Shown: positions 8,244 through 11,200 of the stretch, one piece after another
Layout of the letters: every line of letters starts with the position of its first letter
How positions within the stretch are numbered: the first letter of the stretch is position 1
Assembly: GCF_964204645.1 (NCBI RefSeq)
Contig: NC_134027.1
Location: forward strand, 4,328,485-4,392,484
DNA length: 64,000 nt
Direction: 5' to 3'
Origin: Tubulanus polymorphus
Lineage: Eukaryota > Nemertea > Palaeonemertea > Tubulaniformes > Tubulanidae
The notes under the pieces: generated by a model
Database searches by the model: none
The model's input: the letters and a program-made list of their open reading frames with translations, nothing else
Told to the model about the DNA's origin: nothing
Translations under genes and position numbers: made by a program

Positions 8244-11200
8244 TCATTGAATTGTTAACACATCATTCTGTATCTCTTGACTCAGATGCACTTGTAAATC
8301 ACTTAGTTTCTTCTTGAAGACCGAGAGTCCAGAATAGATTATATTTTCTGGTTTGAGTGACCCACAAGATTCAACATTGAAGTAAAATTTATTTGGTTTC
8401 CCACTCGGATTAAATGGTGCTTGCACTGAAAAAATATGTTTAAAAGAATAATCCTCAATCAAGCTGCATAAAAATATCATTATAAAATACAAAATATTTA
8501 CCTTCATCTTCTCCTATTTCTGTATATTCACTTTTCGGCCTGAAATAAAATTAGAACACTTACAAAACCTGGCTATGTTCTGACAAAAAGTGACAAATGA
8601 AACTTCAAGAACAATTTCTTGTTGCGCATGCAATCAAAATCTTACCACTCTTCCGGTTTTGGATATGTTGTATGGCGCAATGCATTATCCGGGTCATATT
8701 CAAAAGCAACACCAGCTGTAGGATTCCACTTAGCATGTTCTTTAGCGAATCCCTTCCTTGCAAAGGCACGAAGTTTCAGTTCCTGTCCCTTACGCAGTTT
8801 CACAATGAGAATGTCTGATATAGAAAAAGCCATATGCTAAATACATTTCACTATCAAAGTTGTTGATTATGGGGATGGACATACCTTCAATTTCTCCATA
8901 ATCAGTTCCTTGTTCTCTGTGTCTTGTGGTTACCTGAGTTAAAGAAGAATTAAGTTCAACCATGGCAACATATGTCACTTAGCAACAAAATGGCACAATA
9001 TGGAGGCAAATGATCTCTCAACAGTGCTAGATGGTTTTAGTCTAAGGTACTTGCTTCTGCGCCATTTTGAAGAAGACCAAATGGTTAACATAGATGATGA
9101 GGATGATTCAACCGCTAAAAGATTTTATCCCAAGACCCTACAAAATATCTGTCAAGCAGCCATAAGACGATGTCTAGGTATAAGGGGGTTAGATTTGGTA
9201 AGATTTCTTGTTGAAAATTGAACATTATATCTTTTTCACTCTGCAATGTAAATGGCAATAGTCAATTTCGTATCTTCTGAATTACTCAAAAACAAATATC
9301 CTCGGACAAATAACCTTGTGAATATTTTCAGTGTCAGAAACTTCCTTTGCCAAACGTATTGAAGGATTTAATAAGTAAACTCGAATTGGGTGATTTCTAC
9401 ATATGTCCAGATATGGCTTCACGAGATTATCACTACACCAGAATGTTTCCAGCGAGCTGTCTCATTGATGGGACTATGGTACTCCTCAAATTCTGTCATC
9501 CAGGTATCCAAAGCCATAAACCAAAACAGGGGTCAGAGAACACTATTTTTCACATTTTTTTCTTTTCAAGGTCCAATAATATAAGTGATACATATACTGA
9601 TCAAACTTTCCTCAGATTAGAAAAACTGAATTTCTTAAAACTTAAACACAGCTTGTGCATAAAGTCTGAGCTCCACAGTATACGACATGAAAACGGGAAG
9701 ACACTTTTATTGAATTAATCACACATTTTCATGATTTTTCACAGTATTTCAAGCATACATCTATATTTTTCACGACAATCTGACCCCTGCAATGCATACT
9801 ATTTACTAAATAAGGAGTGTTCAAAGCTATAATGATGATTTTGATTTTTCAGCCCGTTCAATTATTCCTGATGAATGTTACATCAATACATTTCAATATC
9901 ACGACATCTCTTGCCATATCTACTTGAAAACAAGCAGTTTTCCTCAACTGATCGCTCAAAAGAAAGAACAGCAGACGTCATTCACAGAAAAAGAGATCTA
10001 TACATTCACTTTGCAGCTGATTAGAATCTGCAGAAATCTTGCACCTCAGGTGAAAATATTCCCAGAAAACGTATACCTCAACGGAAATGGAGAGATGTTT
10101 TATAGAACATTGGCTTTTCCAGAGAGTGAAATTCAACTGACACTGTTCTGCAGTGATGGCATTTATGAAGCACCAGAATCTTTGAAGGCGGAAAGAGAAT
10201 GTACTGAATACTCGCGTGTGTGGACTATTTGCTGCTTAGTTTATGAAATGGTTACTTATTCTGCAGCATTTAAAGGCTGCTCTCCATTTTTGATAAGCTT
10301 GGGACAAAATCTAGGAAGTTTCATTATCTCCCAGTTACCGCTCCCAAAATTGCCAGATCGATATTCAGAATTGGTACAAAACCTCATTACTTTAGGAACA
10401 AAAAATGACCCGATTGAGAGACCTAGCTTGACAGAATTCAGGCAAATGGTTGAATCACAACTGGAATCTCTTCAATCATAGACTTTGTCTTATTCACTCC
10501 ATACTTATATCATTATACTCACTGGAATGACTTTAGGATTACTTGATATTAGATCAGCTGATGAAACATGTCTTGTCTGGTCATCTGTACATTTGACATC
10601 TAATGTAAATTCCACTGAACAATTAGGACAAAATTCTTCGCATGTACAATCCTTGACAAATGATAACAGAATAAATAAATAACACACACATCGGAAGAAA
10701 GAGACAAGATCGAAACTAAATTGATTAAATTTACCCTTGAATATTGCAACAGTTCGACCTCTTCATCACTAGTGAGTGGAATCAATCCAACTCTGTGAGC
10801 AATGAATTCATCGCTGACAACCGTTGAATTGGCATCTATTTGTACCCAATCAATCGCTGAAGATAAAAAACAAAGGTTCTCCTCAATAATGCGTTTAGTT
10901 GTAAATCAAGTTGTTCTCCAGTGAATCAGATTGACTACTTACCGATTGTTGGCACCTCAGCGATACATATGCGCCTCAAACCATTAGCAACACTGAAAGA
11001 CGACAGAAAAAAAAAAACTTAGTGAAAAACGATTAAGCTACACTCATCTGGTTGCGAGTGCGTTTGGCCTTGGAGGAGTGGACAATTTGAAAATACTACT
11101 AGTAGGGCGAACTCTTTTATCAGATCGGAGAATCCGTTTGCCTCCAATCGTACTCTTTTATTGGTCACGTGACTTTTTGGAGTCTCCGAAACCTCCTCTC

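Follow-up and report, generated by a model that had tools for sequence, protein, structure and literature searches.

According to passages of PMC4812663, a SOCS box has two elements: the BC box, which binds Elongin C, and the Cul5 box, which binds Cullin-5. A pseudokinase is also known in this context: sections of PMC12254500 report that NRBP1, which carries an Elongin-binding motif, acts as the receptor of a Cullin-RING ligase with Elongin B/C. The activation and regulation of the kinase NEK7, in turn, are attributed in excerpts of PMC5716973 to NEK9 binding and back-to-back dimers. The gene described here, from the nemertean Tubulanus polymorphus, lies at positions 9000-10481 of a 64,000-nucleotide stretch of contig NC_134027.1 (positions 4,328,485 to 4,392,484, forward strand), the whole of which is referred to as the window. 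In its predicted product, the fusion of a SOCS box with a NEK6/7-like kinase domain is confirmed. With a probability of roughly 0.6, we interpret the gene as a Cullin-5 substrate receptor in which a NEK6/7-type pseudokinase would act as the substrate-binding module and NEK6/7 binders would be the prey.

Three exons on the plus strand splice into an uninterrupted frame of 332 amino acids, with GT/AG at the intron ends. Their content is as follows:

9000-9197, plus strand: exon 1, with the start codon, a 43-residue leader, the BC box (residues 46-55) and the first portion of the SOCS box.
9332-9503, plus strand: exon 2, with the remaining SOCS box including the LPLP Cul5 box (residues 70-73), then beta1 to beta3 of the kinase-like domain including K119.
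9853-10481, plus strand: exon 3, with the remaining kinase-like domain (without HRD and DFG, with EAPE and DPIERPS) and the stop codon.

The coding frame ranks first of six by codon score in each exon, and shuffling the bases of exon 3 left no open frame in 5000 trials. Since the frame is intact at about 29% identity to its NEK6/7 relative, the sequence argues for a protein that has been under long selection.

The Pfam profile SOCS_box matches residues 44-78 with an expectation value (E) of 1.2e-8 and 35.4 bits, compared with a curated cut-off of 23.5 bits. The consensus patterns for the BC box and the LPxP Cul5 box are both recognizable, T46, L47, C51 and I55 forming the former and LPLP at residues 70-73 the latter, in the usual order. 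In a sequence search of the PDB, ASB7 is the solved structure closest to the SOCS portion (residues 43-80, E 2.3e-4). About 250 residues follow the box, which places it at the N-terminus, unlike the usual C-terminal layout, although Elongin and Cullin-5 binding is not known to depend on that layout. A preliminary description of this DNA had claimed a BC box and an LPLP motif with SOCS-box spacing at exactly these residues, N-terminal to a degenerate kinase domain. The profile search that it proposed for the 332-residue product bears this out, as SOCS_box exceeds its curated cut-off and the kinase-like domain behind it gives a Pkinase match that is significant yet below its own cut-off.

A gene-model artefact would explain the fusion differently: exons 1-2 and exon 3 might belong to separate transcripts, or exon 1 might not be joined to exon 2. 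The gene model is indeed conceptual, being derived from genomic sequence, and this counts in favor of such an artefact and against a receptor. Nevertheless, we regard it as very improbable, because the SOCS box itself straddles exons 1 and 2. In a six-frame search of the genome, the exon 1 portion read on into the intron scores 24.0 bits by itself (E 0.017), and the score rises to 35.4 bits once the two exons are joined. In addition, exon 2 runs unbroken from LPLP into beta1-beta3, and its kinase-like stretch starts ten residues after the Cul5 box, so that the preliminary claim of a single exon holding both the Cul5 box and the start of the kinase-like domain is correct. Because exon 2 unites these two elements, the fusion is independent of any single splice guess.

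The N-lobe part of exon 2 is NEK-like. ELGDF resembles ELGNF of the genome's own NEK6/7, and CLIDG..VLLK resembles CLLDG..VALK of human NEK7. The score of this stretch against exon 1 (1a) of the genome's own NEK6/7 or against human NEK7 was reached by none of 5000 shuffles, and that against an alternative first exon of the same NEK6/7 gene by 87 of 5000. Exon 3 prolongs the same NEK6/7 alignment to a score of 113 (2000 shuffles: mean 32.9, maximum 59), which also speaks against an artefact. In the NEK6/7 gene of this genome, two candidates for the first coding exon lie in tandem (L008, 523-708 and 839-1006), both of which encode the segment from the glycine-rich loop to beta3 and end in the same phase.

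Pfam Pkinase matches residues 218-321 significantly (E 2e-6, 27.9 bits). Aligned with the NEK6/7 of the same genome, the domain retains the beta3 lysine (VLLK, K119), EAPE and DPIERPS but has neither a glycine-rich loop nor HRD nor DFG. The earlier reading of a domain without HRD and DFG that retains the beta3 lysine, EAPE and DPxxRPS was therefore accurate. Given the loss of the glycine-rich loop, HRD and DFG, the kinase part is, by its predicted catalytic motifs, no NEK kinase; it is a derived NEK6/7-like pseudokinase.

Its kinship was assessed at several levels. Among the best 60 of 165 matches of the 332-residue model in the PDB sequence search, ranks 1-10 are nine Nek7 sequences and 6npy_B (E 1.9e-8 to 2.6e-7, 33-37 bits), and the next kinase after NEK7 is PDK1 (E 0.014, 17.7 bits). 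A 351-residue model that includes a further candidate exon, described below, reaches 38-45 bits with NEK7 and 17.5 bits with the next kinase. NEK7 is the nearest solved relative, ahead by 19-28 bits. Within the genome, the kinase part of the 332-residue model scores 117 with the own NEK6/7 versus 32-63 with 12 other kinase stretches, which are single open frames near the top of the genome's kinase matches and include two partial domains (500 shuffles: mean 33.7, maximum 63). In the alignment of the 351-residue model with the own NEK6/7, 68 of 237 aligned residues are identical (about 29%). The own NEK6/7 was assembled from 8 exons (306 amino acids), and the candidate fusion gene has 3 or 4. 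Introns of the former lie +3 and +24 codons from the beta3 lysine in phase 0; those of the fusion gene lie at +4.3 and, with the additional exon, at +23.3 in phase 1, close to the NEK6/7 introns in place yet offset by a few bases and different in phase. A kinase on contig C2, the best other kinase match and presumably NIM1, was considered as a close relative and rejected, as it matches SIK3/MARK-type kinases. When viral contigs were scanned with exon 3, no relative emerged. A mollusc haemocyanin model matched nothing in this genome and nothing in its controls either.

The genome provides a background for the position of the box. Among the other SOCS boxes with E <= 0.001, an in-frame stop follows within 46 codons in 51 of 51 and within 15 codons in 45 of 51; this count covers 51 of the 56 other boxes above the cut-off and under-represents boxes split by introns. 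The box of the fusion gene is interrupted by an intron and for that reason is absent from this set; other split boxes would be missed likewise. For the six boxes with a stop at 17-46 codons, the stop might be intronic. On this basis, the 51 boxes look C-terminal and that of the fusion gene is N-terminal, in agreement with the C-terminal habit of SOCS boxes that the preliminary description had mentioned. No kinase match was found near the 51 boxes, the nearest being 35.9 kb away among at least 163 kinase places, and a fusion of a SOCS box with a kinase beyond the matches listed is possible. Pieces of genes for the ligase machinery are present in the genome, both for Elongin C (90 and 94% identity) and for RBX2 (79 and 97% identity).

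As a separate observation, the genome contains small families of SOCS-box genes. The SOCS boxes of L043 and L044 (C4:22206055 and C4:22209472) are identical and separated by 3.4 kb, and L047, L051, L055 and L056 share near-identical SOCS boxes with the tail QIPDWAA.

Compared with the described systems, the fusion protein resembles the SOCS/CIS, ASB, SPSB, WSB and Rab40 receptors in its curated SOCS box, BC box and LPLP motif. In these families the box is typically C-terminal and is preceded by domains of the SH2, ankyrin, SPRY, WD40 or GTPase type. Passages of PMC4812663 place it at the C-terminus in CIS/SOCS and SPSB proteins; in the fusion protein, by contrast, the box is N-terminal and its partner is a dead kinase. 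Another point of comparison is NRBP1/NRBP2, to which the preliminary description had drawn a distant parallel. The functional likeness holds, since sections of PMC12254500 describe a pseudokinase combined with an Elongin B/C-binding motif. The parallel fails in motif position, as the same sections place the BC-binding motif of NRBP2 in the C-terminal half and that of the fusion protein occupies residues 46-55 of 332. It also fails in kinase kinship: as far as NRBP can be compared by description, the fusion protein differs in its NEK6/7-like kinase and in its full SOCS box including the Cul5 box. NEK6 and NEK7 are the nearest kinase kin by sequence, from which the fusion protein differs by its identity of only about 29%, the loss of the catalytic motifs and the N-terminal SOCS box.

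No fusion of a SOCS box with a kinase or pseudokinase is described in the titles and abstracts listed from open-licence PubMed Central (PMC) papers, and phrases such as "N-terminal SOCS box" had no match among open-licence PMC papers. The architecture may be annotated in subscription papers or general protein databases. Provided that expression follows the gene model, an N-terminal SOCS box paired with a dead kinase would be a new type of substrate-capturing protein.

The anatomy of the predicted protein suggests how such a receptor could work. Through the N-terminal SOCS box, the BC box would bind Elongin B/C and the LPLP Cul5 box would recruit Cullin-5/RBX2, while the dead NEK6/7-type kinase domain directly behind the box would serve as the substrate-binding module. 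The likeliest prey would be NEK6/7 binders, that is, a NEK9-like activator, NEK6/7 themselves through kinase-kinase contacts, or shared substrates. Their ubiquitylation would then damp NEK signalling. Expression, complex formation, prey and outcome are all parts that we infer from the gene's sequence, and the identity of the prey is a guess, which weakens the proposal at this point.

The main rival to the receptor is a short-lived decoy, and the present evidence fits both alike. In that case, the pseudokinase would compete for NEK6/7 partners and the SOCS box would mainly set the protein's own level via Elongin and Cullin-5. The anatomy is equally compatible with this function, and the NEK9 binding and back-to-back dimers of NEK7 that excerpts of PMC5716973 describe could be blocked by a dead copy. 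However, published abstracts present the members of other SOCS-box families as substrate receptors, and we consider a decoy rather unlikely.

If the gene is expressed and functional, the SOCS box can work at the N-terminus, and a dead kinase can serve as the substrate binder of a Cullin-5 ligase. A substrate receptor of this type would be a natural counterpart to man-made kinase degraders and would bear on the roles of pseudokinases. It would also add a new control over NEK6/7 signalling, with a kinase docking surface turned into a degradation signal. More generally, there might be a kinase-derived class of Cullin-5 receptors, in which a NEK6/7 duplicate without catalysis and with an N-terminal SOCS box degrades proteins of the NEK pathway; this extension is tentative, and we would not bet on it at even odds.

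The 332-residue model raises a structural question, because our reading of the alignments leaves no room in it for helix alphaC between beta3 and beta4. About 27 residues separate the beta3 lysine from the hinge, by eye some 20 too few; the shortfall matches alphaC in size. In the own NEK6/7, alphaC is encoded on a separate 63-nt exon. A candidate counterpart was found in the second intron of the model:

9621-9677, plus strand: candidate exon 2b, 57 nt long with both ends in phase 1, encoding a putative alphaC and giving a product of 351 amino acids.

Exon 2b preserves the frame, and its 19-residue peptide has CIK in common with NEK. Its inclusion raises the NEK7 matches by 5 to 10 bits (2wqm from 36.7 to 42.1, 6s73 from 35.1 to 45.1) and yields one continuous NEK7 alignment over residues 100-338. 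A CAG acceptor 5 bases upstream of the exon 2b acceptor would lead to a stop codon. On the other side, random inserts of window DNA equal exon 2b in 2.6% of cases with the own NEK6/7 and in 9.2% with human NEK7, and shuffled 57-mers do so in 5.1% and 11.3%, respectively (n = 2000 each). The Pfam kinase score stays flat (27.8 vs 27.9 bits), with the C-lobe alone aligned. Helix alphaC is absent from the 332-residue model, and exon 2b may supply it with marginal support. Twelve open models with an internal exon were enumerated, three of which were scored against kinases. Two longer models were rejected: one of 377 amino acids, top by rough splice score, has a 39-nt intron judged too short and brings no gain in Pfam, and a read-through of 390 amino acids brings no gain in Pfam either.

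The chance levels and flat profile score of exon 2b belong to a wider set of results that weigh against a working receptor. Pkinase, at 27.9 bits, remains below its Pfam cut-off of 31.7. A single-sequence structure prediction, which covered exon 3 alone, has a mean predicted local distance difference test score (pLDDT) of 40.3, and a Foldseek search with this exon 3 model returned 945 matches at E <= 10 and none at E <= 0.001, with ion channels ranked first and the kinase 3brb at rank 22, a list that is uninformative about the fold. The codon scores of the coding frame are close to background (0.2, 3.3 and -7.0 in exons 1, 2 and 3), that of exon 3 being slightly below it although first of six, and in the comparison across six frames stops lower the scores of the other frames. 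By a rough scoring matrix, the splice sites of exon 2 score low (acceptor -1.4, donor 0.3) and those of exon 2b are weak. Finally, a genome-wide search revealed no further copy of the fusion, the best match beyond its own exons having E 0.024.

Much of this could be expected from a decaying gene, i.e., a former SOCS-box NEK fusion that is losing its function. The missing alphaC of the 332-residue model, the low-scoring splice sites at exons 2 and 2b, the single copy and the codon score of exon 3 would all fit. Nonetheless, three exons without a stop or frameshift, a SOCS box far above its cut-off and a coding frame that ranks first in every exon despite deep divergence from NEK6/7 speak against decay, which we therefore judge improbable, though less so than an artefact of the gene model.

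The genomic surroundings of the fusion gene are tight. Matches to RPB3, the product of POLR2C, flank it on the minus strand (window 8645-8815 and 10505-10660), and two further features were noted:

8934-10522, minus strand: intron of POLR2C (RPB3) that contains the entire coding part of the fusion gene, with borders set by eye.
10670-10682, plus strand: AATAAATAAATAA, resembling a poly(A) signal by sequence match only, 188 nt past the stop codon.

The three-exon coding sequence is thus nested in one POLR2C intron of about 1.6 kb with about 100 bases to spare. In view of the poly(A)-like signal at 10670, the 3' end of the fusion gene is likely antisense to a POLR2C exon. POLR2C is adjoined in divergent orientation by a CID-domain gene on the plus strand from window position 11644, which we take to be RPRD1-like. 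No Rfam RNA families were found within the window. Between POLR2C exons (by eye), positions 11105-11285 of the window hold an inverted repeat whose 25-nt arms are 80% complementary and enclose GTACTCTTTTAT motifs, and its sequence looks like a small transposable element.
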